From Campylobacter concisus (GTDB lineage Bacteria; Campylobacterota; Campylobacteria; Campylobacterales; Campylobacteraceae): a stretch of DNA of 31,160 bases. The stretch covers positions 1 through 31,160 of the forward strand of contig JAHADO010000001.1 of the NCBI GenBank assembly GCA_018375265.1. Direction: 5' to 3'. This document shows, in pieces, positions 1 to 22,623 of the stretch. The notes under the pieces are model-generated. The model was not told where the DNA came from, did not search any database, and saw only the letters and a list, made by a program, of their open reading frames with translations. Every line of letters starts with the position of its first letter. Position 1 is the first letter of the stretch. The position numbers were made by a program, and so were the translations under genes.

Positions 1-536
1 CTCACACGGCGTTCCATCAAGATAACCATCTTGACTTGTGCCCATTACTCCGTCTCTCATTACAAAAGACATCATCGCTTCGAACACTACTTTTCAGCAT
101 TGATTCATTTGCTTATTATGCTTCGACAAATTACTAAAACGTTCAATACCTTTCGACGTTCCAATTATTCTATCATATCTATACGTAGGTGCTTGTTTTA
201 AGATGCAATCCACAAAAGGCCTTTTAAACCAATAAGGATATTCCTCAACGCATTAGTACTAATCCTCAAATTAACATCTTTTTAGTTCACAAGTTCGTCA
301 GTTTCTATAAACATACTCACCATATATAGGTCATAGACTCCCGCCCTATTAGTACAAATACTGTCAGGCGACTTTACCGAGCTTCACACAAAAATCGTTT
401 CCAATAAATGCATGTCGGAATCTCAGAGTTGATATTTCAAGGCATTACCCTATCATTCTACCAATCGAATAATTAGTTATCCATATAATAAATCATCGTA
501 TGAACGCATAACTTTTCATTATGCAACGTCTCGCAC
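1..536 (-). mobile_element. Group II intron D in the coupling gene (3' end outside window)
   Basis: On the minus strand the intron starts at 536 with GTGCGAG, the group II 5' consensus GTGYG, directly after exon 4. It shares a long block with intron B (the stretch reading GAATGATAGGGTAA, then CTCTGAGA). It carries a small hairpin with a GTAATG loop (about 52-70) that introns B and C also have. At positions 1-15 the minus strand reads GGAACGCCGTGTGAG, the first half of a domain V like that of intron B, so the 3' end should lie within roughly 60-80 nt beyond the window. No ORF is present, so this would be an ORF-less intron of about 600 nt that depends on a maturase supplied in trans. The 536 bases hold no other gene. 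Confidence 0.8.
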
Positions 537-556
537 TGCGTTGTTTGCAGCATTTG
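537..556 (-). CDS. Coupling protein exon 4 (20-nt micro-exon)
   Basis: The minus strand reads CAAATGCTGCAAACAACGCA. Joined to the last C of exon 3 it encodes P-N-A-A-N-N-A, which continues exon 3 (…DDPVW) into the PNAANNAF-type motif I recall from coupling proteins of this family. The left border is fixed by GTGCGAG of intron D. The right border rests on reading frame and on the position of the branch-point bulge in domain VI of intron C. Intron D then interrupts at phase 0. The micro-exon cannot be found by ORF calling. The next exon lies outside the window. Confidence 0.75.
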
Positions 557-581
557 TTGCGGATAGGTTTAACCCCCCGCC

Positions 582-616
582 AAAACCGTGCAAGCAAGTT
601 TCCCCGCACACGGCTT
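582..616 (-). ncRNA. Group II intron C domain V
   Basis: The minus strand folds as AAGCCGTGTGCGG, then GAAA, then a partly complementary arm ending GCACGGTTTT. It has the AGC catalytic triad and a GNRA-type loop. Its position just upstream of a short domain VI and exon 4 is as expected. Confidence 0.85.
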
Positions 617-643
617 TCCATGTAACTATTACATCTTTATATG

Positions 644-1615
644 CTATCTCTTTTTCGTGTGTGGCGCAAAAAATGTAGTACCATATAACGTCTTAATGAT
701 TTGCCCACGATACACTCTCACAGTGCTATCCCCATCTTTTTTGTGATAACCACACCGATTATCCCTTGTAAGTTGGTGATAGCACCAAATATCAAGCTCT
801 CTCGCTATCTTACCGAAATCATCATTGATGCGTGTTGCATAACGAAAATCGCGCCTAAAGCGTCCAATAAGCTTATTATATGCAAAAACATCTTTTGCAA
901 TATCTTTTGACGCCATAACTCGCTTAAAAGCTTTCTTTAAATCAGCTTTTATAGCTTTACAACGCTCCATTTTCACACGTGTCTCTGCAACATACTTTCC
1001 ATGTCGCACCACAAGACGAATTGTAAAATTATGAAAACAAATTTTACCTTTTCTCATATCAATAACTTTTGGCACTTCAATATCGACACCCTCAAAACGC
1101 TTCAATTTATTTGCAACAGCAAATGCAAGCTTTTTCATATCGCTTACATTTTTACCTAAGCAAATAACACTTTGGTTATAACGAACGTAATAAAACTCTT
1201 TCATCTTAGTCTGTCGCATACGAGCGTATTGCTTCGACTTATCAAGAGTTTCACCACGATATTTTCGTTTCAAACCAAAGGATGCAATCTCAGAGTAACC
1301 TTCCCATTGAGAATAAAGCCAAGAATCTAAATCATAATAAACCGCATTATAAAGTCGATGATAATCATCAACTGATAACGCTTTATGAAATAATTTATTC
1401 TGAGTATCTTTTCCAAAACACCCGCGCTTTATACCCAATGAAAGTGCCTTGTCTGACACTAACTTTAAATCATAAGGCAACTCAAACACAATAGCATAAT
1501 AATTTTTGCCTTGATTTAGCCTATACAGGACGTGAGCGAGAGCATGAGCTTCGCTAAATCCGTCTCTATAAGCATACGTATTTGGAGCAAATACCGCTCC
1601 TTCTTTTTCACACAT
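644..1615 (-). CDS. Truncated, catalytically dead group II RT/maturase (intron C)
   Basis: 323 aa; ATG preceded by TAGGAGA at good spacing. It aligns by eye with the maturase of intron B but begins only at RT motif 1-2 (APNTYAYRDGFSEAHAL corresponds to YNHSYGFRPLRNVSHAL). The amino-terminal third of a normal RT is therefore missing. Catalytic positions are lost: YYAIVFEL stands where the other protein has YYAVKIDI, and VRYNQSVI stands for VRYADE/DD. The LLAN-containing motif 4 is also eroded (LYNAVYYDLDSWLYSQWE). The reading frame is nonetheless open for 323 codons through the X (maturase) region (about 230-310), which argues for retained splicing function. It cannot be a functional polymerase. 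No endonuclease domain is seen. Confidence 0.8.
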   Translation of the reverse strand: MCEKEGAVFAPNTYAYRDGFSEAHALAHVLYRLNQGKNYYAIVFELPYDLKLVSDKALSLGIKRGCFGKDTQNKLFHKALSVDDYHRLYNAVYYDLDSWLYSQWEGYSEIASFGLKRKYRGETLDKSKQYARMRQTKMKEFYYVRYNQSVICLGKNVSDMKKLAFAVANKLKRFEGVDIEVPKVIDMRKGKICFHNFTIRLVVRHGKYVAETRVKMERCKAIKADLKKAFKRVMASKDIAKDVFAYNKLIGRFRRDFRYATRINDDFGKIARELDIWCYHQLTRDNRCGYHKKDGDSTVRVYRGQIIKTLYGTTFFAPHTKKR

Positions 1616-2220
1616 AAAATAAGTCTCCTAATCGTTACTTATACTAGTATATACTGTAATAGTTCCACTAAAGGTCATTGCTCCGTCTTCATTACAAAGA
1701 CATCTTAGCTCCACCTTCGCATACCGATAAATTAAGATGCTTTACTATGTAAAACAATTTATATGCATCAACTAAACGTTTCACCGATTCCTTGTTACTC
1801 ACACAACTATCATATTTCATGCACCTTAGAACCTTTGTCTAACCCGAAGTTACTACCTTGAGGCATCGTTAGTATCCTCAATAAGCGTTTTGGTCTCTGG
1901 CATAACCGTGCGCCTTTTCACTTATCTGCTGCGCCAATGAGACGCATCCCTGCTATCGGGTTTTACCTTCCAAAGTTCGTCAGATTATCTCTAATCATAC
2001 TATTCATAGTGCACCAAGACACCATAACTCTGTCCCCGTTCGCTACTCTCGGTTTTGCTGCTACATAAGCTGTAACAACGGACAGTACATCATCAGTCAG
2101 ATTGCTCTTACAACAAGTTATCGTTTAATCTTGCTGCTTTATCCATATTAGTGTTCGCCCAAGTAGGTCGTTACGCTACTTTTAGCATAGGACGAATCGT
2201 TGTGTGCCTACAAGTCGCAC

Positions 2221-2433
2221 GCCAAACAGGGTCGTCGCCGCCATCGACAGGGAAGAAGATTTCTGCGATGTTCTCGACGTATTGCGCTGCTTTATTTCTA
2301 TCGCCCTCTCTAGCAGCCTCCACCGCAAAAACCAGTGGATTATAAATGTCGGTATTAAGAGGGTTGATGAGATTAAATTGTACTGGTTGATACCCACGGT
2401 AAGTGGCTTGGACATAAAATTTTTGTAATAATT
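2221..2433 (-). CDS. Coupling protein (VirD4/TcpA-like) exon 3
   Basis: 213 nt. With the last G of exon 2 it reads E-L-L-Q-K-F-Y-V-Q-A-T-Y-R-G-Y-Q, then PVQFNLINPLNTDIYNPL, a stretch around EAAREGD, and ends FFPVDGGDDPVW plus one C. This is the segment expected after the NDPKG motif in this coupling-protein family. The frame is open only between the two intron borders: a stop lies just upstream inside intron B, and the downstream reading degenerates inside intron C. Introns enter at phase 1 on both sides. Codon use resembles the other transfer genes, not the introns. Confidence 0.9.
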
Positions 2434-2481
2434 ATACTGATAGGTAAGCATTTGATATTATCTCCAGCTTTTCCCCCAGTC

Positions 2482-2517
2482 CAAACCGTGCGTGAAACTT
2501 TCGCCTCACACGGCTAT
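2482..2517 (-). ncRNA. Group II intron B domain V
   Basis: The minus strand reads ATAGCCGTGTGAGGC, then GAAA, then a complementary arm ending GCACGGTTTG. The AGC triad and tetraloop are present. It is nearly the same as the half-domain V at positions 1-15 of intron D. Confidence 0.88.
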
Positions 2518-2561
2518 CCATCTAAATAATTTTCTTGATTAACAAATATTTACTAAAAATC

Positions 2562-4004
2562 TTATTGCTTATTCTTTGCACTAATAGCGCATCTACCTTT
2601 AACGCTATATATACTCATTGATTGCCTATAATTCATAGGATTTTTATGATGCACAGCTTGAATCACATATAAGGGCACATCATTGACCTTATAAATTTTG
2701 GTCCAAGACTTTACACCAACATTCAATTTTTTATATGACTTATCCAAAGACTTATATTCAACAATCTTAGCTTTATTGCCTAATCTTATTTTAATACTTT
2801 TGCTAAGACCTCTAGCTATAGAATCTAAATCTAAATAAACCATCGTTGCATATTTATAATAATTTTTAATTGTCATAAGACAATAATTATAATTATTACA
2901 CGCTCTATCAGAATAAGTATTTCTTTGAATATTCATTATTTTAGACTTTAACTCAGTCTTTATTTTCTTCAAAGCTTCATCTGATATATGTGTTGCAGCA
3001 ACATAGCCATTTTTTGTTGTACCTTTTGGCACGGCCTTTATTTTGAAACCTAAATAATCAACATATTTTTGTTTCAAATTGACAATCTTTGATTCATTTT
3101 GATTAACCGACAAATGCAATCGTTTGTCTAAAAACTCAGATACAGCAAATTGCCACCTAACAGCATATTCATATTTCTTAGTCAAAATAATAATCTCATC
3201 AGCGTATCTAACGATATAACCATGCTTCAAAGATAAATCTTTTTTATTATGAAACACATGAACGTTGCCATTACAAGGAAAATGCTCCCACTGAGATTCA
3301 ACCCATCTATCTAAATCAGTCAAATAAACATTAGCCAAAAGCGTACTTAAAAGTCCACTATGAATTAAACCCTTTGACTCATAGGTTGACAACATAGATT
3401 TTATCACAGACAACAGTCGTTTGTCTCTAATGCCAAACGACCAAAGTTTGTCCATCATAATCTTCTGGTCCACATTCTCAAAAAAAGAATTTATGTCTAT
3501 CTTTACAGCGTAATAGCATTTTCCCCTATTTATTAAAGAAACAACTCGCGACAACGCATGCGATACATTTCTGAGCGGTCGAAACCCATAACTGTGATTA
3601 TAAAATCTAGCTTCACAAATAGGTTCCAACACTTGCAAAATACTTTGCTCAATCAATGTGTCATATATACTCGAAATGCCAACAGGATACAACTCGCCAT
3701 AATATTTAGACTTATATCCTCTTTTTGAATGCTGCGGAACATAATGAGATAACCTCTTTCTCACAAAAGAAACATATTCATCTTCAGATAGTAACGTTAA
3801 ATCTTTAATTGATTTACCATCTAAATCAACTATCTTAGTTGCCATATGAGTCTTCAACTCATTATATGCTAATTTGATATTTCTTTCGTCTAAAACCAAA
3901 GGCATCAAATTATACACATTATCACCATTTTTGCTATTGTTGTACAAATCATCGAACTCTTTTGTCAAACCAAAATAAGCAATATTTTCTAACTTAGTAT
4001 TCAT
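2562..4004 (-). CDS. ltrA: Group II intron reverse transcriptase/maturase (altered active site)
   Basis: 480 aa; ATG preceded by AAGAAGAA, a weak ribosome site. RT motifs run in order: an RT1 region with YPVGISSIYDTLIEQ (about 106-120), the conserved SYGFRP (138-143), YYAVKIDINSFF with the first metal-binding Asp (D170), motif 4 and motif 5. Two core motifs are changed. The usual PQG(G) before SPLLAN is IHSG-LLSTLLAN (214-225), and YADD is YADE (267-270). A maturase X domain follows (about 340-440). No DNA-binding/HNH endonuclease tail is evident. The likely role is splicing of intron B and perhaps of C and D in trans. Reverse transcription may be weak or absent; that is inference. The symbol follows the LtrA family. 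Confidence 0.85.
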   Translation of the reverse strand: MNTKLENIAYFGLTKEFDDLYNNSKNGDNVYNLMPLVLDERNIKLAYNELKTHMATKIVDLDGKSIKDLTLLSEDEYVSFVRKRLSHYVPQHSKRGYKSKYYGELYPVGISSIYDTLIEQSILQVLEPICEARFYNHSYGFRPLRNVSHALSRVVSLINRGKCYYAVKIDINSFFENVDQKIMMDKLWSFGIRDKRLLSVIKSMLSTYESKGLIHSGLLSTLLANVYLTDLDRWVESQWEHFPCNGNVHVFHNKKDLSLKHGYIVRYADEIIILTKKYEYAVRWQFAVSEFLDKRLHLSVNQNESKIVNLKQKYVDYLGFKIKAVPKGTTKNGYVAATHISDEALKKIKTELKSKIMNIQRNTYSDRACNNYNYCLMTIKNYYKYATMVYLDLDSIARGLSKSIKIRLGNKAKIVEYKSLDKSYKKLNVGVKSWTKIYKVNDVPLYVIQAVHHKNPMNYRQSMSIYSVKGRCAISAKNKQ

Positions 4005-4682
4005 TTCTTCTTTATTCCCCTAACTAATTAGTTTAATAAATTTTCACATTCATAATCGAATAGAAATGTCAATTGTTAATCAGTACATTATTGTTTAGAT
4101 TAATGGTCTTCGCTAGATAGCCATTACGCTATCATAATCACTACTATACCATCTCTGCCACGATATTTAAGAATAGTTATGAATTTCTATTCAAGACTTC
4201 AACGAAATTAAGTTCTCAGTCTATATCGCTTCACTTGTTCCTACATAATAGTTTATACGTTATATTTAGGTCTTTCCTATAACCCTGTAATCTTGATTGC
4301 GCCTATAACGCAATATGGATTTTCATAAAGGACGCATCTTACTCATCCACAATTACCACACACTTGTGCGTATCAAAATTTCTTTTGATATCCCTTATAG
4401 AGCCGTCATTTCGGAAATTCGTCTTAGCTTACGCTTATTCTAACCATATATAACATTATCTCCCGACATAACTCACAACCATATCTATAAGACTTAGGCT
4501 GTTTTCTGCCGACTTCAGCGAGCTTACAACAATCAATATCTTAACCTATATCATGCTGTTCGCAGTCTCAGAGTTAGTGTTTCAAGGCGTTACCCTATCA
4601 TTCCACTATCTATCATGTAAGTTATGTGTTGTGCAAAATTACGCAACACACTCGCATCTTTTCAATACGAAACAAGTCGCAC

Positions 4683-4791
4683 CACCTTTGGGGTCATTGA
4701 TTACAATGTTAGAAGGGATTTTCTCCCTTAACCACATCGAAATCGTTGGTTCAATATATGTCTGACCCTTACCCGCTCTAGTTATTGCCAA
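4683..4791 (-). CDS. Coupling protein (VirD4/TcpA-like) exon 2, with P-loop
   Basis: 109 nt encoding L-A-I-T-R-A-G-K-G-Q-T, then YIEPTISMWLREKIPSNIV and INDPKG, plus one G. TRAGKGQT is the Walker A region of the coupling ATPase, and NDPKG is the next conserved motif of the family. The exon is bounded upstream by the group I intron and downstream by GTGCGAC of group II intron B. A short open frame spanning it exists by chance, but its flanks are intron RNA. The 5' border may move by up to two bases because the sequence GTT is shared at both intron ends. Confidence 0.9.
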
Positions 4792-4798
4792 CTCTTTA

Positions 4799-4995
4799 TT
4801 TTGCAAGTCTACTACTGCAAAATTTAACATTCGCACTTTCATGCGAACTCTGACTATTTGTCAATCTTGGCTATTTTCGCACCAAGACCTCGCATTTTTC
4901 TTCCCGCACCAACTCTGGTGCAGGCTTTACCCCACAATCTTGAAACAGATTGCTTCGCGTTAATTCGCTCCCCCGTCAGGGGATAGTCGATGAAC
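4799..4995 (-). ncRNA. Group I intron 3' core (P7, P9 hairpins)
   Basis: R element 4981-4995, S-side strand 4852-4857 completing P7, and two consecutive hairpins at 4830-4847 and 4799-4822, ending a few bases before exon 2. The segment between R and S is large enough for P3', P8 and peripheral hairpins; I did not resolve them. Confidence 0.7.
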
Positions 4996-5004
4996 ATGTT
5001 ACTT

Positions 5005-6870
5005 TTATCTTACAAATTGCCAAATCTTTGAACCGACACGATAGACTCTATCGTAGCCGTGCCCATCGTCAAAACGATGAGGCATCTTTGTCTCAATATA
5101 CTCGTCTATCTCATTCTGAGCAGACAACTGTGACGTATATTTCGACAACACACCACTTTTAGCACTCCACGGCGTTGCAATTTGCCACGAGTACACATCG
5201 AGTCCATTACTTGGCGAAATAAAGCACAAAGAAGTCTTAATCTCTCCAACTAACTCAGCGCCAGCTCTAGCATAACCAACTCCATCACCGATATTATTGT
5301 CAGAGAAAGACTTAATGATATCGCAATCAGCATCACTCTTAAAATATGCCTTAATGAACTTAGACAGACCACCAAGCACTTGCACACCACGTTTAAAGCA
5401 TAAACGCTTTAACTCAACATAGCCTTTATGCTGCTTGAACGACGCTACACCGACAAGTTCGCCGCAATATTCCATTGCAAAATATTTTGTTGCCGTAGCT
5501 GAACCCTGTAGATGATATTCATTCAAAAATGCAACACACTTAGTACGAGCATCTCTTTTAGCTTCATACACAACTGTCTTTCGTGCATAAATCTTCTCAT
5601 CGTATCCGCACAATTTCTGCTTTAACAAGTACTTTGTTTTCTTCTCAAATTGTTCTGGATTCAAATCATACTCAAAAAGTTGAAGCAACACAACACCAGC
5701 TTTCTCAGCTGCTTTATACTTGTCATAATGATATAACTCTTCTTTAGAACCAAAAAGTCTACCTCTATTTTTAGCATATTTATTAGAATTATGCGACACA
5801 GATGGGTTAATCTCGATACCAATCTTTTTCTCTGGAATATAAAAGTCAATTTCTTTTCCGCCTAAAACACTTCTGTTATTGACCTCATATTTCACGCCCA
5901 AACTATCAAGATAGTTTGCGACCATAAGTTCATATTGAGATTTAAAGCAATTAAAATTGCTTGGCAATGAAATTAAACCTTTTTTAGCATCATCATTCAA
6001 AAACGTTGAAGCCATAACGACAGGCATCTTAAAAAACGTATTTGTCGGGTACTTAATCGCACCACGACCAACTTTTTTCCATGCTTTACACAACGTCTCA
6101 ATATGGTCTGACACCTGCATGCTTAAAATAAAGTCTCTATGATATAAAGGATACTCCTTGTACAGCATATCATAAGCGACTTTTTTATCTGATGCTAACT
6201 TCTTTAGCACCCGCACCCAAGCACTGTCGCTCATAAGCATGTCATAACAACGTTTACTAAAATCGTAAACATCATCGCGAGCCATTAGATTGCAAGGCAC
6301 ACCATATCGTTCCATCATAGTCTTTTGCAAATGCTTCTTGCCTGTGTCGGTTTGCATAATATTCTCAGCACCATATTTTGCTTTAACAGTCGCTTTCTGC
6401 TTAGCTTGAATATCAGCAACTTTTGCTGAACTATCAACACCATAAAGCTCCAAGCACGTATGCTTTTGCACATACTTTTTATGCTGTTTCCAATATTCAT
6501 TCACATCAACATCAAGTACCTCTAAAAATGCTTTCTTCAAATCATAATAATAAAAACCATATTTCACAGATAAGTCAATTAAATCAGTTTTCCCTTTTGA
6601 AAACAAAAGTAAATCTTGTTGGACCTCATCAATTTTTTTCTTCAATTTATCAAGCAGATATTTATAACCATCTTTTTTATTAGGTCTACTCTTGCAATTA
6701 TCATGAATTACTCTATCAACCATATCCGTACAAACAACCACTTGATATAAAAACTGAGGGCTTGCGTGTCCATATACATAAAGCGTATATAGCTCATCAT
6801 AGGTCAACTCAACTTTTGGAAAATACATTGACTTATCTTTTAACTTAACAAAATCGCCTGTTTTTCTCAT
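5005..6870 (-). CDS. Intron-encoded homing endonuclease, Vsr-like/EDxHD type
   Basis: 621 aa. The start is the ATG at 6870, preceded by AAAGGAGGTGA at 7 nt; a longer TTG frame is not needed. The N-terminal 130 residues are helical. Two KYG/RYG repeats of the kind found in phage homing proteins follow (about 134-190: KATVKAKYG, KTMMERYG). The nuclease-like domain is at about 311-401 and has the order SQYE (E314), EIDFYIP (D342), IGIEINPSVSHNS (E353, H360), YHYDKYKAAEKAG and LLQLFE. This fits the Vsr-related EDxHD homing nucleases. The C-terminal domain (about 444-560: FLNEYHLQG, ASF, KRLCF, GGLSKFIK, GYARAGAELVG) resembles the DNA-recognition/GNAT-like tail of phage intron endonucleases. It presumably drives homing into intron-less coupling genes. 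The assignment is by motif memory only. Confidence 0.7.
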   Translation of the reverse strand: MRKTGDFVKLKDKSMYFPKVELTYDELYTLYVYGHASPQFLYQVVVCTDMVDRVIHDNCKSRPNKKDGYKYLLDKLKKKIDEVQQDLLLFSKGKTDLIDLSVKYGFYYYDLKKAFLEVLDVDVNEYWKQHKKYVQKHTCLELYGVDSSAKVADIQAKQKATVKAKYGAENIMQTDTGKKHLQKTMMERYGVPCNLMARDDVYDFSKRCYDMLMSDSAWVRVLKKLASDKKVAYDMLYKEYPLYHRDFILSMQVSDHIETLCKAWKKVGRGAIKYPTNTFFKMPVVMASTFLNDDAKKGLISLPSNFNCFKSQYELMVANYLDSLGVKYEVNNRSVLGGKEIDFYIPEKKIGIEINPSVSHNSNKYAKNRGRLFGSKEELYHYDKYKAAEKAGVVLLQLFEYDLNPEQFEKKTKYLLKQKLCGYDEKIYARKTVVYEAKRDARTKCVAFLNEYHLQGSATATKYFAMEYCGELVGVASFKQHKGYVELKRLCFKRGVQVLGGLSKFIKAYFKSDADCDIIKSFSDNNIGDGVGYARAGAELVGEIKTSLCFISPSNGLDVYSWQIATPWSAKSGVLSKYTSQLSAQNEIDEYIETKMPHRFDDGHGYDRVYRVGSKIWQFVR

Positions 6871-7136
6871 ATCTGTTTCACCTCCTTTAACAATTTTCTC
6901 TATACTAATATTTATCAAGACAAAAGTAACTTTGCTGCTAAACCACCATTGTAAAAACCCTTAGCACCCCATTCGGAGCTTTTATTTCAGCATAGGTCAT
7001 CCTTTTTATTTCTTTCTGCTTTCGCAGCCATCACGCTCGTCGTTACCGACCACGTTGTGGCAAAAAAGGCTTTAGGTTTTCAAAGCAATTAAACGATTGA
7101 TACACACCTGTCACCAGATATGCAGTGCCGACATAA

Positions 7137-8339
7137 CACCAAAGTATTAACTGGCGCAGTATCAACAATGTATGCACCCGCAGGTCTCTGGGTTTCATAC
7201 GACGGAATGTCCCAATCACCGTTAATAAGGTCTGCAACAGTGTCATAGCCTTTCAGCTTGTCTCTGTTTTTGTCACCCTTATTATAGTCGATTTTATTTG
7301 GGTCATACCATTTACGAATGCTTGTCAATGCTCCAGACGCCTCATAAAGTTCATCCATGAACTTCTTATCGAACATTGGCTTTTTCTCTGTCAGCGCATT
7401 TCCTTCCTCATCACGAAGAATCTCGCCTTTCAGATAGACGACATCGCCGTCTGCATCCACAATATCTTCTTCTGCACGTTTTGAGACGTCAACCGACTTA
7501 ACGCCTTTATTGCTTAACGCAACGTGCGAAATCATACTGGCAACCTGTACACTTGAATGTGCGCCAGCATCAGGGAAGTAATCGAACTTTCTCATTACTT
7601 CCTCTGGTAAAGCAATATGTTGGTCGTTCTGATACTGATTGATATCAGACGTATCCCTCATAGCATTTTGAGCTGCAAGATTGCGCATTAACAACTCGTA
7701 CAATAATGCGAACACAATAGCAGCAATACCAAACGTTACCAAGAACTTAATGACAGTGATATGGAAAAACCAATACCAATATGTCTTCTTTTCTTTAGCA
7801 ACACGGACCTCTTGCTGCTTTGCCTCAATCTCTGCTTTACCTTCTGGAGTTGCAGCCTTTTCCTCGTAAGACTGCTTGGAAGCTGCGTACCAATCTGGTT
7901 CGGGGACATCACTTAATGAATCATAAATTGGTCCATAGACGTCACCATTCTCATCAACAGCTTGATACCGTGTCTTATAGACAGAGTTACCACTAGAGTC
8001 TGTTACAATACCACCAACTTCTTTAATGTAATTATAAGGATTATCCTCATTATACGACAAAGTCTTTGATGCATTAGAACTACTGTCTGCGGAAGCACTC
8101 GAAGACTGACTTGCACCTGCACTCACATACGAAGCGCCCATTTCAATAGCACTATACACTGTCCATGCTAGGACAAGCGAAAGCAGCGAAACAACTGCTG
8201 CAATAATAATACGTGATACTGGGGATTGCTTTTCCTCAATCTTCGAACGGTCTAACTGCTGGTCTTCATAGACATCCCTATAACGTGTGTCCTCACTAGG
8301 GTCTCTGTCTTGAAGTTTTTCCCAGTTAGTTTTAGCCAT
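7137..8339 (-). CDS. Conjugative coupling protein (VirD4/TcpA-like), exon 1
   Basis: 401 codons. ATG start with AAAGGATGG about 10 nt upstream. The cytoplasmic N-terminus is followed by TM1 (about 42-64), an external Ser-rich loop, TM2 (about 189-216), and the start of the ATPase domain. It ends RPAGAYIVDTAPVNTLV, which leads directly into the P-loop segment of exon 2. Coupling proteins take the relaxase-DNA complex to the secretion channel as membrane ATPases. The raw frame reads on for 15 meaningless codons into the group I intron. Exons 1-4 together give 515 residues, and the gene continues beyond position 1. It looked at first like a truncated gene, but the in-frame continuation in three more exons shows an intron-split gene. 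It has its own promoter at 8534-8562. Confidence 0.88.
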
Positions 8340-8495
8340 AGCTTCACCATCCTTTCAAAACTTTTCTACAATACAATATGCAACTATCAAGGTACGTAAA
8401 CTTTATATACTTCCTGTGATAATAAATACAAAGGAACATAATGGCGTCTTCGAGGAACCCTTTGTATCGAACGCACACACTCCATATATAAAGGT

Positions 8496-10899: not shown

Positions 10900-13788
10900 C
10901 TATCGAACACCTTTCACCACAATATAAGCATCAGATTTAAGCTTATCTTTATTGTCAATCTGCAGGTCGCCCGCAACACCGACAAAAAGCTTTGTTTCAT
11001 AAGGATGCTCGTTAATATACTTAGCAACTGCAACGACTACCTCAGTATCAATACAAGAGTTAATCGCACGAGCACCACCAGCATCAGAGTCTGTAGTTGA
11101 TTTATCAAATACAATATATCTCACAAGCTTATCCATATCGTATTTCACATCAACTCGATGCTTCTTCAAAACATCGCTTCTTAAAGTCTTGAGCTTATAC
11201 TCAGCAATCTTCTTCATAGTATCTCTTGACAATGGATTGAAAGGTACAATCGTATCAATACGGCCAAGAAGCTCTGGTGGGAACCTATTGTCTCCCGTAG
11301 TTGACCTAATAGAGCGACGAATCAGCTTGCCATACTCACGAAGTGCTGCGCCAGTGCCCTCATCATCCTCGCCATAATCAGCAACGGTCTTATAAATCTC
11401 CGATGCTGCATTGGTAGTCATGATGATATAACAGTTCTGGAACGATGTCTCTCGACCATTACGGTCGGAAAGGCGACCATCATCCAGTACCTGCAAAAGA
11501 ATACGGGTAACAGGAGAACACGCCTTCTCAATCTCGTCCAAAAGGACAATCGAGTGTGGTTTCTCCCAAATACGGGTCGTTAATTCGTCACGAAAACGCT
11601 CTAATGACTCAGGCATAGCATACTCAGTCATGTCGAAACGAATCATAGATTTTTCGGAACCAAAAATTTTCTCGGCTAGTGCTTTAGTTACGGCTGTGTT
11701 GTGAGTAGCCACATACTGACCAGCAAGATACAAATGCTCGTCATCTTGAACATAAATACACTGAGCTGACTGCTTACCAATATATTTAATATCAGCAATA
11801 CCAACCATACTAAAATCTCTTACACGAACTTTATCAGTGCGCTTATGCTTAGCAAGAATATCTAATTTGCGAGACAAAGTAAAGAATCTACTTTTCTCTT
11901 CATCTGTAGATTTAACACGTAACGTGTATTCCTCTTGCTTTCGCTCTTTATTACCATCTTTACGATATCTCACATAACGATTTATAGTATTAGGAACTCC
12001 AAGCGAAAATAGCACAGAACTAATGTCTTCAGCCAAACCTTTACTAAACGTACTATATGATACCCTAACTCTATCATCAGCAGAAATAGTTCCATCTGTA
12101 TCAAAAAGACCTTGAATCAAGCGCCAACGTTGTTCAATAGAGCCATACATATATTTCTTTGGAATTCTTCTATCTTTTGAATAACAGCCATACAACGCTC
12201 TTGCATCAGATAAAACATCCCTTGTCTGAAACAATGTAACATGACCCTTACGCATATCTGTTGGTAAATAAAAAGTATGATTATAATTTCCCTTATGCCT
12301 ATGTACACCCATCGCACCAATGCTTTTTGCAACAGTATCAATAATTTCGGAGTCATTGCCTGAAATAGTAAACGCGCTATCTGTCAAGCAACCATCACCA
12401 ATAGCAACGCCTAAAACATAAGGGTCAACAGCATAATCAAGTTCCTCCCATTGAACAGCTTCATTCATAGGGATATAATACTTTAACTTGTCACGTCCAT
12501 TGTCACGGTTATAATAAAGCCCGTTATCCAAAAGTTCTTTAGTTGACATAACAAAAGGTTTACATCTTGAATAATCACCCTTGTGAGATTGTCTCTGTTT
12601 AGACGTATAAACAGTCCACAGATGCTCATCACCAACATCAAGCGTACGACCATCTGCCAAACGAACACGATACATTTTGACATCTTTGTGTGGAAAAATT
12701 CCCAAGACTGTTTCAGGTTGTCCTTTGCGGCCAAATACGATATCGCCTGGCTTCAAATCGCCATGTCGCTTAATACGTATGTTGCCATCAACATATACAG
12801 GGACAGGCTCGTAATTTGCTATTAATTTACCCGTTCCTGAACTGCCCGTGAACAACATAGTCGATAATGGTTTCGTCTTATCGTTCAAATCAGCAGCACA
12901 GATATTCAAACGTTGCTCAATAGATGATGTTGCAAACTTCTGAGCAAATACTTTAGAGTCAAGATACTCTTTAACCTCATGAGCATCAATATGAATATCA
13001 ATATGAACACCCTCACTTTGCTCAATAACATCTGTAAGCAACTTCTTATCCATAGGAGAGCCATCAAAACGATGCCAACCAACCATAGCATCGAGAATCA
13101 AAATTGACTTTCTTGGCTGCGCATTTGCTGGAATATAACGGTTCGTATATTCATAAATAAGCTCAAAAATGCTATCGTTATAAAATTGTGAAGACACATT
13201 ATAAACACGAGCCATATCCTTCAAAATAGCAACAGTCATAGCTTTATCTGCCTCAGGAAGAACAATTCTCTGAAGACGCTCAACAAGTGCTTGATTTGGA
13301 GAAATAAATTTCCTAAACTCTTCAAAGGTTGACGCAACCATAACACGGATATCACGAGTACCAGAGTCTGCAAGCAATGGCTTTAACGCCTCAACAGCGG
13401 CATCTGAGAGTTGAACAACCTGATGAAACTCGTCCATAAAAAGAACAATAGGCTTATCTTCAGCATTACTATAATTCGCAGCTTGCTCGAACAATGCTTT
13501 AAGAATAGCAGCCATCTCATTAGGGTCATTAAGCTTAGAAATCATCTTAGACAAGTCAACTTCGAGATAAATATGCTTATTATCTCTTTGTGCAAGACCT
13601 TGAACAAAAGCGGTTTTGCCCGAGCCAGCGTTTGCAATAAGAAGTACATTACAAAGCTCTGGGCGCACAAACGCAGCAAGCGCCTGTTTCATCTGCAAAT
13701 CACGACCAATAACAGGACGCACTGGCTTCTTAACTGGCGTGGTATACTGGACTAAAAGAGGATATACCTCAGCATCAATTTCAAACAT
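10900..13788 (-). CDS. Clp/Hsp100-like double AAA+ ATPase with intein
   Basis: 962 aa precursor; about 586 aa after intein removal. I chose the ATG at 13788, with AAAGGTG 8 nt upstream; ATG 13794 and TTG 13806 are alternatives. AAA domain 1 begins VIGRDLQMKQAL with Walker A NAGSGKT (about 53-59) and Walker B VLFMDE (D119, E120), much like ClpA/ClpB. Domain 2 has Walker A GSSGTGK-T split by the intein, Walker B IVLLDEIEKA (D751, E752), TTNAA as sensor region, and LLGRID with the arginine-finger position. There is no Clp N-domain and no long middle domain. It is probably an unfoldase or remodelling ATPase serving the transfer system. I saw no ClpP-docking loop. The gene stands alone, with its own promoter. 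Confidence 0.82.
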   Translation of the reverse strand: MFEIDAEVYPLLVQYTTPVKKPVRPVIGRDLQMKQALAAFVRPELCNVLLIANAGSGKTAFVQGLAQRDNKHIYLEVDLSKMISKLNDPNEMAAILKALFEQAANYSNAEDKPIVLFMDEFHQVVQLSDAAVEALKPLLADSGTRDIRVMVASTFEEFRKFISPNQALVERLQRIVLPEADKAMTVAILKDMARVYNVSSQFYNDSIFELIYEYTNRYIPANAQPRKSILILDAMVGWHRFDGSPMDKKLLTDVIEQSEGVHIDIHIDAHEVKEYLDSKVFAQKFATSSIEQRLNICAADLNDKTKPLSTMLFTGSSGTGKLIANYEPVPVYVDGNIRIKRHGDLKPGDIVFGRKGQPETVLGIFPHKDVKMYRVRLADGRTLDVGDEHLWTVYTSKQRQSHKGDYSRCKPFVMSTKELLDNGLYYNRDNGRDKLKYYIPMNEAVQWEELDYAVDPYVLGVAIGDGCLTDSAFTISGNDSEIIDTVAKSIGAMGVHRHKGNYNHTFYLPTDMRKGHVTLFQTRDVLSDARALYGCYSKDRRIPKKYMYGSIEQRWRLIQGLFDTDGTISADDRVRVSYSTFSKGLAEDISSVLFSLGVPNTINRYVRYRKDGNKERKQEEYTLRVKSTDEEKSRFFTLSRKLDILAKHKRTDKVRVRDFSMVGIADIKYIGKQSAQCIYVQDDEHLYLAGQYVATHNTAVTKALAEKIFGSEKSMIRFDMTEYAMPESLERFRDELTTRIWEKPHSIVLLDEIEKACSPVTRILLQVLDDGRLSDRNGRETSFQNCYIIMTTNAASEIYKTVADYGEDDEGTGAALREYGKLIRRSIRSTTGDNRFPPELLGRIDTIVPFNPLSRDTMKKIAEYKLKTLRSDVLKKHRVDVKYDMDKLVRYIVFDKSTTDSDAGGARAINSCIDTEVVVAVAKYINEHPYETKLFVGVAGDLQIDNKDKLKSDAYIVVKGVR
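11698..12825 (-). mobile_element. Class 3-type intein with LAGLIDADG endonuclease in the Clp-like ATPase
   Basis: 376 residues (about 322-697) between GSSGTGK and T of the second P-loop; removal restores GSSGTGKT. The first intein residue is Leu, so there is no N-terminal Cys/Ser nucleophile. Block B reads VGDEHLWTV, with His and a Trp two residues later (W391). Block F is SAQCIYVQDDEHLY with Cys (C677). Block G is VATHN followed by Thr +1. These are the W, C and T positions that define class 3 inteins. LAGLIDADG motifs LGVAIGDGC and IQGLFDTDG keep their acidic residues, so the homing endonuclease looks intact. Confidence 0.88.
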
Positions 13789-13820
13789 AAACATAACACC
13801 TTTCAACGAAATTTTATATC

Positions 13821-13857: not shown

Positions 13858-13898
13858 TTGAAAAAAAAAATTAGGGGCTGACAAGCAACCCCTAATTT
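13858..13898 (-). terminator. Rho-independent terminator of the 186-aa gene
   Basis: On the minus strand the arms AAATTAGGGG (13889-13898) and CCCCTAATTT (13868-13877) are followed by a run of about ten T. It is a textbook terminator 25 bases after the stop codon. Confidence 0.92.
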
Positions 13899-13923
13899 CA
13901 CATTGGATGGACAAATAGTCCGA

Positions 13924-14484
13924 TTAGACCTCTGGAGTATCCTTAGTGGTCTCAGCCTGAGCCTCAACCTCTGTACCCTCGGACTGAATCTGAGCATCGC
14001 GGAACTCACGAGCTGCAGTGGTAACAGCAGCCTGACGCTCAAGAATAGTCTTGGTAAACTTAGGATTCTTAGAATGAGTCATTTCCTTAGAGGTATCAAT
14101 CAGAAGCTCGCCCTTAGCATTCTTAAGAAGGCTTGCGCGAACGCCATAGACAGTACCTGGCTTCTCACCCTTAATCTCACGAGTATAGTTCTTACCAGCA
14201 GCATTAGCAATTGCCTCGAGCTGAGACTGCTTATAGAAGACACGGTGAGATACATACTCGCCACCAGATGGATGCTGGACCTTACGAGAAGTCAGATGTG
14301 GGTTAGTGTCAGCCTGAGCCTCACCAGTCAGAACCTTATCTGGGTTCTTCAGAGACTGGTCAACCTGTACATCAAGATACTTACCGTTGGTCTTACCATC
14401 CTTGCTCTTACCAGAGCCATTTGTTGGTGCAAAGACAATGAGATTAACGTCTTTAAATGCACCCTGTCCACGTAGAATAGCCAT
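13924..14484 (-). CDS. Unknown 186-aa protein of the transfer region
   Basis: ATG with AAAGGTAGGTAG upstream. Not recognised. It is soluble and mixed-charge, starting MAILRGQGAFKDVNLIVFAP. A Gly/Ser/Lys linker near residue 23-33 (NGSGKSKDGKTNG) is too irregular to be a P-loop. A Glu/Thr-rich tail follows from about 165. It is transcribed alone between its own promoter (14559-14587) and a strong terminator, directly downstream of the relaxase gene. The position would suit a DNA-processing accessory protein, but nothing in the sequence proves that. Confidence 0.6.
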   Translation of the reverse strand: MAILRGQGAFKDVNLIVFAPTNGSGKSKDGKTNGKYLDVQVDQSLKNPDKVLTGEAQADTNPHLTSRKVQHPSGGEYVSHRVFYKQSQLEAIANAAGKNYTREIKGEKPGTVYGVRASLLKNAKGELLIDTSKEMTHSKNPKFTKTILERQAAVTTAAREFRDAQIQSEGTEVEAQAETTKDTPEV

Positions 14485-14558
14485 AATAACTACCTACCTT
14501 TCTGTGAAAAAAAAAATAATATAACGGTCATGGCTGCTCATTTCAACCAATCATGTGT

Positions 14559-14587
14559 ATTATAACATATTCTGATTCACTTGTCAA
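14559..14587 (-). promoter_or_regulatory. Consensus sigma-70/A promoter of the 186-aa gene
   Basis: -35 TTGACA (14582-14587), exactly 17 bases, -10 TATAAT (14559-14564): a full match to consensus, so probably the strongest promoter in the window. A leader of about 65 nt follows. Confidence 0.88.
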
Positions 14588-14607
14588 GTATTATTTCAAA
14601 ATATTTT

Positions 14608-14660
14608 AAAAAAATTGTTAGGACGTCTAGCTGGACAAAGCACAGCGTAGACGGACTAAC
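14608..14660 (-). terminator. Hairpin and T-run after the relaxase gene
   Basis: Arms 14617-14633 and 14643-14660 pair over 15 base pairs (GTTAG, two mismatched bases, CGTCTA, then GCTG/CAGC). On the minus strand the hairpin is followed by a run of seven T (14608-14614), so it should terminate relaxase transcripts. Its place beside the relaxase gene also makes it a candidate oriT hairpin. I found no nic-site sequence I can name. Bases 14661-14717, up to the relaxase stop, hold nothing else I recognise. Confidence 0.75.
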
Positions 14661-14717
14661 CGCGTAGCGAAAATGGATTATCCGCTTAAAGATAGAGTGA
14701 GTGCATTGAGCGCAGCA

Positions 14718-16829
14718 TTACTCATTAAACTCAACAGAGTTAATGACAGCGCGAATTGCTTGCTTCATATCCTCGTCAAAACTCATGTCTAAAGACACCG
14801 TGTCACGCTTCTTACCTTTACCACCATTACCAGTCTTTTTGCTCTCAATAACCTTATTGCCTCGTGACAGCATGTCGGCGTACTCAACCATAGAGGTAAC
14901 ATCTTGCACAGGCAACTGTGAGACAATAAAGCCCTGACGTGACGAACGCAGATACTTAACAGCAGCATTAAGCTTCGCCTCACGCTCGTGAGCCTTCGCA
15001 ACGAACGCATCAACGTTCGGCTTCGATATAGGCGCATCATAAGGGAAGTCATAACCCAAATGGTGTAAATCTAAAGCTTTTACATCGTCAAACTCATAAG
15101 GTGGCGTCGTACGAACCACTTGTTTCTCGCCATCCTCAATCATGCTCATGCCCATATCAGCTAGCTTATCTTTAAATTCACTCACATGAGTTTCGTAAAG
15201 GCTCTCAAAAGCGTCACGACGTTGCTCAAGACGCCTTGGATTATCAACCATCCAATGTCCGCCAGCAGTGTCATATACTTTTAAGCCATAATCTTCAGCA
15301 GACTCTGAGCTACGGCGTTTCATACCCTTATCGGCCATCATTTGCTTTAACTTAACAAGCTTATCTCGCTCCGACATTAACGTCTCAAAATCACTCTCAT
15401 ATTCTTCCGTTGGCGGCAAAAAAGCTAAGAAGTGCTGATACTTAGCCATAAGCTCAGCATTATATTCTTCCTCAAACTTATAAAAATCATACAAAACATG
15501 AGCATCGGGCGCAACATTACCTGCGGCTTCTGCTTCCTCAAACTCTCTCATTGCGTCCTTATATTTATGCTTTTCCTTCTTATGATGCTGAAGTCGTGAC
15601 GAGTATGACCTAAGTTTAAAGCCAAACTCAATCATTGGGTCACTTGTTGCTTCAGCCATTTCTGTATACTCCATGCTCATAACATCGAGCATAGGAGTAG
15701 TAACATTTTTTTCATAAGAAGGAATTGTTGACAACACCGCATAAACACCGTTCATGCAATCAGTAATCAGACGCTCACGACCTTGGCTAATAAGTTTACG
15801 GAACTCTGCGCCTTTTAATTCTTCACGAGATTGTCTTGCTAACGCATAAGACTCAATCTCACGAAGAGCCTCTTTGTAACCACTATCAGGCTGCGCCAAT
15901 ACTGCCTCAACATACTCTCTAACAATAGCGTTGGCTTTTTTCATCTCACGCCTATGCGTACCTGCACGCCACATGTTCTTATCATCTGGCAAACACGCCA
16001 AAAGTAACTGTGACGTACCATTGCGCTCCATCACTGCGTGAGTAAATTTTTTAATAAAACAGCGAGCATTCCGCCTATCATAAGCAACATTCGATGCAAG
16101 CATCTTCACAGGGGACATCTCGTCTAAATTCATATCAATAGAGCGACGAAGCGTACGCTTATCCGTCTCATCAAGTTTACCCTTCTGCTCGCCATTTCCC
16201 ATTTGACGACCTTGTCCCTTGTCAACCATACAAAGGTGACAGTGAACATGCATAGTGTCTACTTGGATAACACCAACCCATTCTAGGTCATCAAACCTCT
16301 TACCCATCTTTTTCATACCATCAATAATGGCAAGTCGTAATTTAAGTTGGTCAACATTACCTCTATAATCGCCACGCCTTTGTGGTTCAAAGTCTGGCTC
16401 AACAATTCCCATACGCTTTAGATAGGAGAGGTCAAACGATAGAACCGTTTTCATAACAGTTTTTCCCGACTCAAACTGCTTCTGAATATCTTTAGAAACT
16501 CGTTTCACTTTTCTATGAGACATTGAAACGTCCCCGTCATCATATTTACCACTAGACCCAAAAGCAATACCACCTAGCTTTTGTGCTTCACGCATACCAT
16601 CTTTAATACGACCTACACTATCATATTTTTCTGTAGCATCTTTTCGTGCCATATATCTTGTAACATATAAGTCGGGGTCATCAAGACGCACTGGAGTTAA
16701 ATCCTCCACCGCATCACCTCGGGCCATATAACGCTCAACATATTGTCCTGGTGTGCCACCACGGGTGCCACCCGATGGTGTCTTAACTGAAAACTCACTC
16801 ACGACAACAATATCTTGCTTCAAACCCAT
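14718..16829 (-). CDS. Relaxase, MobP-type (MobP2-like)
   Basis: 703 aa from the ATG at 16829, which has AGGAGGT 7 nt upstream; the in-frame GTG at 16838 overlaps that site. The HUH metal motif is QVDTMHVHCHLCMVD (H194, H196, H198). The N-terminus carries two copies of a Y-V-x-R-Y-M-A-R-x-D-A element (about 30-41 and 55-66), like the tyrosine-containing start of MobP2 relaxases, and it may hold the catalytic Tyr. The C-terminal half is helical and charged, with no helicase or primase motif seen. The role would be nicking at oriT and piloting the strand to the coupling protein. No promoter lies directly upstream; expression must come through the hairpin at 16853-16890. Confidence 0.82.
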   Translation of the reverse strand: MGLKQDIVVVSEFSVKTPSGGTRGGTPGQYVERYMARGDAVEDLTPVRLDDPDLYVTRYMARKDATEKYDSVGRIKDGMREAQKLGGIAFGSSGKYDDGDVSMSHRKVKRVSKDIQKQFESGKTVMKTVLSFDLSYLKRMGIVEPDFEPQRRGDYRGNVDQLKLRLAIIDGMKKMGKRFDDLEWVGVIQVDTMHVHCHLCMVDKGQGRQMGNGEQKGKLDETDKRTLRRSIDMNLDEMSPVKMLASNVAYDRRNARCFIKKFTHAVMERNGTSQLLLACLPDDKNMWRAGTHRREMKKANAIVREYVEAVLAQPDSGYKEALREIESYALARQSREELKGAEFRKLISQGRERLITDCMNGVYAVLSTIPSYEKNVTTPMLDVMSMEYTEMAEATSDPMIEFGFKLRSYSSRLQHHKKEKHKYKDAMREFEEAEAAGNVAPDAHVLYDFYKFEEEYNAELMAKYQHFLAFLPPTEEYESDFETLMSERDKLVKLKQMMADKGMKRRSSESAEDYGLKVYDTAGGHWMVDNPRRLEQRRDAFESLYETHVSEFKDKLADMGMSMIEDGEKQVVRTTPPYEFDDVKALDLHHLGYDFPYDAPISKPNVDAFVAKAHEREAKLNAAVKYLRSSRQGFIVSQLPVQDVTSMVEYADMLSRGNKVIESKKTGNGGKGKKRDTVSLDMSFDEDMKQAIRAVINSVEFNE

Positions 16830-16845
16830 GATAACCACCTCCTAA

Positions 16846-16890
16846 ATAAAAACGGCTCACTACCTATAAAACCATATAAGCAGCGAGCCG
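16846..16890 (-). terminator. Terminator or attenuator between the 294-aa gene and the relaxase gene
   Basis: On the minus strand CGGCTCGCTGC (16880-16890) pairs with GTAGTGAGCCG (16853-16863) over 11 positions with two G-U pairs, followed by TTTTTATTT. The relaxase ribosome site AGGAGGT begins directly after the T-run. As no promoter lies between, the relaxase is likely made only by read-through. Confidence 0.75.
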
Positions 16891-16910
16891 CAAAACCTTA
16901 AAAATTCAAA

Positions 16911-17795
16911 TTAGTAAGAGAAACCATCGTCTGAAGAAGGATACTCATTGAATGGCTGAACATCCACGCGCTCTGGCTCCTGCTCGTTAGCAGGCTCTGT
17001 AACTTGCTCGTCAGAACCCTCTGCCTCGTGAGAAATCTCTGGCTCATTCTGAGCCTCAGCCTCAGCGGCTTCTTTCTCAGCAAGACCCTCGGTCATAATA
17101 CGGTCATACTCGCTTGCAAGTTCCTCTTGCTCTGGAGCATCCTCGACTTCAGTCTCAGGTTCAACAGTCTCCTCAACTTTCTGCTCATCCTCATGCTCAG
17201 GAGTCTCAATCTCGTTGAACTCACGCTCATCAATATACTCTTCTTTATCCTCGACAGGTTGCAGCTGAACCTGCTCAAAGTAATCAGCAAAACGATAGCC
17301 ACTGTTCTGAAGATTAAGAACAAGAGAGTTTCTGTGCTTAATATCCGCAAAAACGATAGGCAAATCGTTCTCCTGTGCAGGAAGAACTGTTACCAAATCA
17401 CAAGCAAGCGGAACGTTAATAGTAATATCCTCGCGAGTCATAATTTCTGGAACTTTAAAACCCTTATGATAAAGTCCTTTGAGCACAAGCTCGGAAATCT
17501 CTTTATCGCTAAACTCATAGAAAATATCAACGTCTAGGGCATTCTCGTCATTAAACGCTAGACCATGAACGCCATCGCCTAGCTCACCACGAAGTCCAAT
17601 GCACTTACCAACAATATGCAGATAAGGACGACCTGGAGAATCGGGGTCTTGCCATGAACGAGCATCTAAAAATGCAGACGTTGCATGGATATCAGCATCA
17701 CAAATCTTATCGTAATCATAAGAAAGTGCTTGGTCATCAAAACCATGAGCCATAGACAGAAGATTATCTGTCATTGTTTTACCTGGAATAATCAA
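16911..17795 (-). CDS. Unknown acidic-tailed protein upstream of the relaxase
   Basis: 294 aa. The start is TTG at 17795, with AAAGGAG at 6-7 nt; an ATG at 17800 opens only a three-codon frame. Residues 1-180 appear globular (PYLHIVGKCIGLRGELGDG; IFYEFSDKEISELVLKGLYHKGFKVP). Residues 185-294 are Glu/Pro-rich and probably disordered. Not recognised. It shares a transcript with the relaxase, which suggests an accessory role in DNA processing (inference). The GGAG of the ribosome site lies in a small TTCTC/GAGAA repeat. Confidence 0.6.
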   Translation of the reverse strand: MIIPGKTMTDNLLSMAHGFDDQALSYDYDKICDADIHATSAFLDARSWQDPDSPGRPYLHIVGKCIGLRGELGDGVHGLAFNDENALDVDIFYEFSDKEISELVLKGLYHKGFKVPEIMTREDITINVPLACDLVTVLPAQENDLPIVFADIKHRNSLVLNLQNSGYRFADYFEQVQLQPVEDKEEYIDEREFNEIETPEHEDEQKVEETVEPETEVEDAPEQEELASEYDRIMTEGLAEKEAAEAEAQNEPEISHEAEGSDEQVTEPANEQEPERVDVQPFNEYPSSDDGFSY

Positions 17796-17840
17796 AGCAT
17801 TCTCCTTTCAAGAGAACCCACTAAGTTTAAGATATCACAT

Positions 17841-17869
17841 AGTATACTATACTCTATCTCATTTGTCAA
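17841..17869 (-). promoter_or_regulatory. Sigma-70/A promoter of the acidic protein-relaxase unit
   Basis: -35 TTGACA (17864-17869), 17-base spacer, -10 TATACT (17841-17846). Confidence 0.82.
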
Positions 17870-17890
17870 GAGTAAATTACAACTTTTTTA

Positions 17891-18232
17891 TTACTTTTTC
17901 GACTTTTTCTCGGCAGCCTTACGCTTTCTTTCCTCAAGCTCATCCTCACGCTTATTACATAGATAAATAGTAAGACGAGCGTTTGCAAAACGATTCACAC
18001 CACGAATCATATAAAACGTTGCAATGAACAATAACCCGCTAATGAACATTGTTGGCAAAAGCCAATAGGTTACAATAGCTGGCAACGTTGCATCAGCGGT
18101 AAGACCCGACGCAATCGCAATTCCTAGAGCAACAATACGTGTGCCAAACAGTCCGAAAATCGTAACAGCGAATAGCGTAAAGACAATTACAACAAAATAA
18201 CGAAGAAAATAAGCAATACTAGTCTTAAACAT
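17891..18232 (-). CDS. Small two-TM protein of the T4SS operon
   Basis: 113 aa. TM segments lie at about 10-40 and 48-75, followed by a Lys/Glu/Arg-rich tail (EDELEERKRKAAEKKSKK) that should be cytoplasmic. The ATG is 5 nt after the stop of the preceding gene, and its only ribosome-site-like sequence (GGATT) is inside that gene, so translation is probably coupled. Size and topology recall VirB3/TcpE-type small channel proteins, but I see no diagnostic motif. Confidence 0.6.
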   Translation of the reverse strand: MFKTSIAYFLRYFVVIVFTLFAVTIFGLFGTRIVALGIAIASGLTADATLPAIVTYWLLPTMFISGLLFIATFYMIRGVNRFANARLTIYLCNKREDELEERKRKAAEKKSKK

Positions 18233-18237
18233 AATTT

Positions 18238-20864: not shown

Positions 20865-20893
20865 AACTAATAGTATACCATAACTTATTAGTT
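20865..20893 (-). promoter_or_regulatory. Possible extended -10 promoter within an inverted repeat
   Basis: TGGTATACT on the minus strand is an extended -10 element (TATACT at 20872-20877) without a good -35 box. It is enclosed by the arms AACTAATA (20865-20872) and TATTAGTT (20886-20893), which also include the stop of the hydrolase gene. It may be a weak regulated promoter for the VirB8-like genes. Confidence 0.35.
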
Positions 20894-22591: not shown

Positions 22592-22623
22592 ATAATCCTC
22601 GCAACTCACTTCCAATAAATCAA

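Follow-up and report, generated by a model that had tools for sequence, protein, structure and literature searches.

Introns of two classes in a probable conjugative coupling-protein gene of Campylobacter concisus: intron-encoded proteins that have lost reverse transcriptase motifs and a likely intron hotspot

Introduction

Can a gene needed for conjugation remain alive when introns of two classes cut it into pieces as short as 20 nucleotides (nt), and what would keep those introns in place? The question is raised by the left end of a 31,160-nt stretch of DNA assigned to Campylobacter concisus (assembly GCA_018375265.1, contig JAHADO010000001.1, positions 1 to 31,160; hereafter the window), where a preliminary description made from the sequence alone had placed a coupling-protein gene split by at least four introns. 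According to a 2015 review, group II introns of bacteria are for the most part mobile and stay out of housekeeping genes, while organelles harbor splicing-only introns served by helper proteins in which the reverse transcriptase (RT) is dead (PMC4424553). The analysis points to a coupling gene that is probably living, with introns removed by self-splicing, with the retro-mobility of its group II introns largely lost, and with a role as an intron hotspot among related elements.

Reconstruction of the coupling-protein gene

The gene lies on the minus strand. Exon 1 (7137..8339) comprises 401 codons for the N-terminal membrane part up to VNTLV, and its open reading frame (ORF) continues into intron 1 as far as position 7089. 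Exon 2 (4683..4791, 109 nt) runs from a Walker A-like TRAGKGQT to NDPKG, exon 3 (2221..2433, 213 nt) from ELLQKFYV to DDPVW, and exon 4 (537..556) is a 20-nt micro-exon encoding PNAANNA. Joined, the four segments form 1545 nt in a single frame that translates into 515 amino acids (aa) with no stop, so that the in-frame joining proposed earlier is borne out to the base, with doubt confined to the end of intron 3. The three junctions, PVNTLV/LAIT, NDPKG/ELL and DPVW/PNAANNA, fall at positions where uninterrupted homologues read straight through. Residues 402-515 (114 aa) show no gap in the alignment with 43 loci that are uninterrupted (thinning at 90% identity leaves 23), 48 of the 51 residues that are invariant across those 43 loci are kept in exons 2-4, and the product of these exons is 75-78% identical to nine homologues compared individually. 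Judged from sequence, the fit of the joined exons to the homologues is far beyond chance. The notion of four separate small proteins was rejected because neither exon 2 nor exon 4 contains a start codon in its own frame.

The joined exons 2-4 match the NCBIfam family conju_CD1115 (VirD4) with an E value of 5.8e-17 and 61.7 bits, the cut-off of 250 being set for the whole protein, and by our own count 78 of the 120 listed homologues carry a precomputed PF02534 (T4SS-DNA_transf) assignment. Both support the earlier identification, and the gene is likely to encode a coupling protein of the VirD4/TraG type. Among PDB sequences, exons 2-4 found no match at E ≤ 1. Uninterrupted homologues, from Nocardiopsis, Streptomyces, Arthrobacter, Paenibacillus and Shouchella among others, are at least 1217 aa long; their frames were read from the first possible start, so the upper lengths are overestimates. 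Since the gene extends past the window, four introns is a minimum.

The introns

Three of the four interruptions are group II introns, each of which starts with GTGCG directly after the exon, in line with GUGYG. Intron 2 (2434..4682, minus strand, 2249 nt, GTGCG...CAGTAT) sits at DPKG|ELL and matches the Rfam models RF02004 (group-II-D1D4-5) at 4452-4626 with 100.2 bits and RF00029 (Intron_gpII) at 2434-2518 with 59.8 bits; it is about 59% identical over 1.9 kb to an intron at the IYN|P site of the homologous locus in Evansella clarkii DSM 8720 (L042). Intron 3 (557..2220, minus strand, 1664 nt, GTGCG...CCGCAA) sits at DPVW|P, where Virgibacillus sp. AGTR 4 (L047) also has a group II intron, and matches RF00029 at 556-618 with 55.7 bits. 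Intron 4 (1..536, minus strand), at NNA|F, runs off the window; it matches RF02004 at 330-481 with 118.7 bits and shares 67% identity with the AS|VYG intron of L042 across 505 nt. The final 20 nt inside the window appear to open domain V; 16 of these are also present at position 13301 of L042 (GATGGAACGCCGTGTG), where domain V of its first intron lies. No ORF of at least 80 aa was found in the visible 536 bases (1-536), which, together with the domain V start so close to the window edge, makes it likely that intron 4 is ORF-less and about 0.6 kb long. The group II starts and class given in the preliminary description are thereby confirmed for all three introns; its claim of domain V holds for introns 2 and 3, where RF00029 scores above the gathering threshold, and for intron 4 only the first 20 nt of the domain lie inside the window. 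A scan for exon- and intron-binding sites gave no discrimination between the introns.

Intron 1 (4792..7136, minus strand, 2345 nt), at VNTLV|L, is likely to be a group I intron. The assignment is drawn from a comparison with L042, which has a group I intron recognized by Rfam (73 bits); over 64 nt the 5' core is 78% identical to that intron (E 7e-12). The intron is also 75% identical over 112 nt to an insert in L047, and a P7-like pairing, GACUAU/AUAGUC, was noted by eye. No significant match to the 3' part emerged from the similarity comparison. Intron 1 contains an ORF of 637 aa (5005..6918, minus strand) with a match to Pfam DUF7487 (E 1e-9) and one to Vsr (E 0.056) that stays under the cut-off, and this protein is likely a homing endonuclease of the Vsr/EDxHD type.

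As the window is an unplaced record, an assembly artefact that joined unrelated contigs had to be considered. It is extremely improbable: a relative of exon 1 (P0001), 97% identical and representing a cluster of 715 members, has the same read-through from exon 1 into intron 1, and L047, too, has a group II intron at the DPVW|P site.

Loss of RT motifs in the intron-encoded proteins

The preliminary description credited the group II introns with RT ORFs. As intact enzymes these were not found, and the loss of RT motifs had been missed. Intron 2 encodes a 480-aa RT/maturase (2562..4004, minus strand; RVT_1 E 5.2e-21; group_II_RT_mat E 6.7e-59, 199.8 bits, below the cut-off of 300) in which IHSG replaces PQGG and YADE replaces YADD, and which has no HNH end. 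The 323-aa protein of intron 3 (644..1615, minus strand) is fingerless, RT-dead and maturase-like: the PQGG and YADD motifs are absent, YNQS standing in place of the latter, while the thumb/X domain and the open frame are kept, and the predicted structure has a maturase-like fold. None of the three group II introns in the window thus carries the motifs for mobility intact.

Relatives of the 480-aa protein nearly all keep the RT motifs; among the 120 listed of 2552 matches, 117 keep [YF][ASG]DD and 118 keep QG[GCS] (a motif table covered 30 of the 120, and a later motif check covered them all). One 475-aa relative, P0140, also has no RT motifs, with FGKR replacing YADD. The 323-aa protein belongs to an RT-dead family that spans 50-95% identity with the frame open and the length near-constant. 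It matched 240 plasmid records; the 20 listed among them are 24-29% identical, 16 of these being annotated as ltrA. No relative of it was found in viral contigs.

A number of observations weigh against a living, self-spliced gene. Measured against exon 1, exons 2-4 have diverged more than is usual, at 0.62 against a pairwise mean of 0.48 (standard deviation 0.12), the highest other row reaching 0.65. Intron 3 ends in AA at the junction that restores the frame, while the Rfam alignment extends by one base to the customary AC (556), a junction that would break the frame. Group II introns with altered 3' ends are on record (PMC4424553). Intron 1 found no match to the Rfam group I model RF00028 over positions 1-8400, even at E ≤ 5, and at its frame-restoring junction a 5' exon ending in U and an intron ending in G cannot both hold. 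The 1.9-kb ORF splits the core of this intron; Rfam likewise missed the inserts of L001, L047 and L048, so that a search with RF00028 in the genomes holding these and L042 gave matches in one of the four, and the L047 intron at site 404 breaks the same U/G rule. The group I intron with an endonuclease ORF that was proposed earlier is retained as likely, from the L042 similarity and the DUF7487 match.

Some of these points feed the alternative that the gene is dead, destroyed by successive insertions, and that its introns splice no longer. In favor of it are the degenerate state of the intron-encoded proteins, the AA with which intron 3 ends and the somewhat raised rate of change in exons 2-4. 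However, no exon has a frameshift or a stop, and the gap-free alignment and the retention of nearly all invariant residues described above speak against it. The degenerate 323-aa ORF is itself conserved, remaining open down to 50% identity, and the sequences concerned are anything but singular, with 715, 644 and 270 members in the 90%-identity clusters P0001, P0121 and P0129. We therefore regard a dead gene as quite unlikely.

An intron hotspot among related elements

Relatives of exon 1 show that the interruptions of the window are part of a wider pattern. The protein search admitted lengths of 283-901 aa only, so every match is the product of a cut gene and uninterrupted homologues could not appear; the 120 listed of 530 matches are hence a list of break sites and give no frequency. 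Eighty-seven of the 120 end at a residue common to at least three proteins, where 2.3 would be expected from a uniform distribution and 16 was the maximum in 10,000 uniform draws. Numbered on an uninterrupted Nocardiopsis protein (L002), twelve shared break sites were read by eye, at 395, 404, 409, 463, 502, 505, 660, 669, 877, 940, 946 and 963. Ninety-nine proteins were assigned to them, also by eye; the other 21 (contig ends, frameshifts, lone or paired sites) were omitted. In most proteins the residues that follow the break are those that GTGYG would encode in the site's phase: R[AV] in 13 of 13 at 463, RA in 7 of 7 at 502, VR in 10 of 11 at 669 and C[DE] in 19 of 26 at 660, where three of the remainder have no tail and four have another one (all by eye). 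The window adds sites 431 and 509 and L042 adds 667, which brings the total to 15. Intron DNA was seen at nine of these (395, 404, 431, 463, 502, 509, 660, 667 and 946), the others being known as protein ends only.

Scanning the exon-1 region in one genome per species gave 52 loci, 47 of them intron-free in the compared region (L050 among them is frameshifted, and L020 was compared over a shorter stretch). Of the other five, two (L001 and L048) run out within a group I-like insert, L013 is truncated by its contig end, and L042 and L047 are interrupted three times each. In L042, the introns at 463 and 660 are both group II, the former with an RT and the latter with an endonuclease-like ORF, and a group I intron follows at 667. 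In L047, a group I-like intron at 404 precedes two group II introns, one at 502 that has an RT and one at 946 whose ORF is not an RT.

Some of these inserts have features of their own. At 13883-16408, L042 has a group II intron with a DUF7487 endonuclease-like ORF in the place of an RT, followed by an exon of about 17 nt and then the group I intron. The ORF of the L047 group II intron at 16536-18511 specifies a 402-aa protein that is zinc-ribbon-like and not an RT (weak DUF2726), perhaps an endonuclease. In L048 (3840-4433) a group I-like insert sits at GKG| and is followed up to the contig end by an ORF that by eye resembles OrfA of an IS3-type transposase; it may be IStron-like or an intron carrying an insertion sequence.

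A tree was built by a quick method from exon 1 of 99 proteins, 45 loci and the window (145 rows), with modest support and long-branch warnings. On it the first-break labels need 58 changes, against a least possible 12 and a shuffled mean of 93.9, and the uninterrupted L043 adjoins P0097, which is cut at 946; loci L013, L020, L024, L029, L044, L048 and L050 and the 21 unassigned proteins were left out. It follows from these label changes, and from the L043 and P0097 neighbors, that introns come and go at fixed sites. Mean local conservation at the 15 sites is 0.946, against 0.792 in the 390-970 region (23 loci), a value that none of 20,000 draws equaled; the seven sites read as group II, tested alone, gave p ~5e-5. 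The coupling gene is thus likely a hotspot for such introns. The row of four introns reported in the preliminary description is present, yet describing it as a feature of one gene was too narrow, with about 15 interrupted sites across relatives.

The gene family itself is rare in the genomes of the order-wide searches: with the seeds excluded, a match was found in 0 of 287 genomes in one and in 1 of 396 in the other, this one weak (E 2.7e-4); with the seed genome included the counts are 1/288 and 2/397. Relatives of exon 1 occur in 8 plasmid records, all at less than 60% identity, and none was found in viral contigs or in phage records.

The fast change in site occupancy supports another explanation, namely that these are ordinary mobile introns, recent and active parasites that use the gene as a convenient set of homing sites and show no specialization for splicing. 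The endonuclease-like ORF of intron 1 and the RT motifs kept by nearly all relatives of the intron 2 protein argue the same way. Against it, intact RT is found in none of the three group II introns of the window, and the RT-dead 323-aa family is old, to judge from its spread down to 50% identity at near-constant length. We regard mobility alone as a serious contender that is nevertheless somewhat unlikely. A further alternative is that the introns act as a regulatory gate, the efficiency of splicing setting the level of coupling protein and hence the rate of transfer. The Ll.LtrB intron in a relaxase gene is reported to lower both host-gene expression and conjugation (PMC6003770), and here such dependence would multiply. 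But with 47 of the 52 scanned loci uninterrupted, the element family works without introns, and a regulatory role is unlikely.

Proposed mode of splicing and spread

In a living gene of this kind, transcription would give a pre-mRNA that loses its introns through their own ribozyme activity. By their maturase (thumb/X) parts, the 480-aa and 323-aa proteins would stabilize their own introns and could perhaps serve the apparently ORF-less intron 4 in trans, and the joined mRNA would be translated into the coupling protein. With the RT motifs gone, the group II introns would have lost most of their retro-mobility and would persist as splicing-only introns, while the group I intron may still move by means of its endonuclease. 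The gene would collect introns because its conserved motifs give related conjugative elements common target DNA whenever they enter the same cell.

A more far-reaching version is offered tentatively. It holds that the window contains an organelle-like splicing system in a bacterial mobile element, with group II introns that have all lost their own retromobility and need, both in cis and in trans, fingerless, RT-dead maturases, which selection has kept over deep divergence, and with conjugation that needs several splicing events. We find this quite possible and stop short of calling it probable. On the simpler reading too, the gene would show the splicing-only state typical of organelles inside a bacterial conjugative element, and it offers a bacterial system for testing the step from a retroelement to a dedicated splicing factor, a step proposed to lie behind Prp8 and the spliceosome. 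Moreover, a single coupling gene serves here to chart the movement of introns from one conjugative element to another.

Other genes in the window

A MobL relaxase (Pfam MobL E 1.6e-44) is encoded elsewhere in the window, as is a VirB4-like protein split into two ORFs (27608-29497 and 29504-30373, minus strand), which have weak family matches and are about 50% identical to three actinobacterial plasmid proteins (Streptomyces, Gordonia, Rhodococcus). The relaxase and the two VirB4-like pieces make it likely that the window is a conjugative element. By eye, the Walker A motif GxxxxGK[ST] seems to be absent from the ATPase part of the VirB4-like protein. A 575-aa protein with a Phage_lysozyme2 domain (20888-22615, minus strand; E 1.2e-24) is likely a cell-wall hydrolase of the element, and at the edge of the window an ORF with DUF3945 and a topoisomerase C-terminal repeat (30505-31152, minus strand) probably encodes the end of a DNA-processing protein. 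A ClpB/ClpA-like AAA+ gene (10900-13806, minus strand) carries an intein-like insert (LAGLIDADG_3, Hom_end) in its second Walker A motif (GSSGTGK|T). Read by eye, the insert begins with Leu, ends in HN/T and has W and C in blocks B and F, features that recall class 3 inteins.

Comparison with known systems

To call the arrangement unusual for bacteria, as was done at first, is too strong without mention of two precedents, the VirD4 intron of pAW63 and the multi-intron genes of Trichodesmium. Among the open-licence literature matches listed, none reported a multi-intron coupling gene or the RT-dead 323-aa family. In pAW63, the VirD4 homologue gene contains one ORF-less group II intron, B.th.I2 (PMC1196294); intron 4 of the window is likewise a group II intron in a coupling-protein gene and also seems to be ORF-less, and a second intron, with an RT, is described in another tra gene of that plasmid. 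There, one intron is reported in the gene, against at least four of two classes in the window and about 15 sites across its relatives. In Trichodesmium, several self-splicing elements share one bacterial gene, as here, the host being a housekeeping gene, however, and the elements inteins plus group II introns (PMC4649490). Ll.LtrB, in the ltrB relaxase gene of pRS01, is likewise a group II intron in a conjugation gene with splicing needed for transfer (PMC4256276, PMC6003770), but is a single mobile intron and lies in a relaxase gene instead of a coupling-protein gene.

With respect to the intron-encoded proteins, the closest bacterial parallel is O.i.I2 in radC of Oceanobacillus iheyensis, in which the encoded protein has lost YADD and kept an open frame; a 2015 review names it as the only known RT-dead intron protein of bacteria (PMC4424553). 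The window differs in having two such proteins in one gene, one of them fingerless and from a conserved family. MatK and other RT-dead maturases of organelles are described as having lost RT motifs while keeping the thumb/X domain, in needed genes and with ORF-less introns alongside (PMC4424553). The window shares these features, with intron 4 as the likely ORF-less one; it is, however, a bacterial mobile element, and the likeness drawn here is one of described features.

Phage group II introns with EDxHD/Vsr-like endonucleases combine group I and group II introns with related endonucleases in one gene (PMC12350094), and they resemble introns in L042 and L047; they differ in residing in phage genes, and in the window an ORF of this sort is present only in intron 1. 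For the hotspot as a whole, the nearest likeness is with mitochondrial cox1, one conserved gene with group I and group II introns at more than 40 sites (PMC2814812). That gene is organellar, and its group II introns are reported to have no preference for conserved sites (PMC2814812), whereas in the coupling genes such a preference is found.

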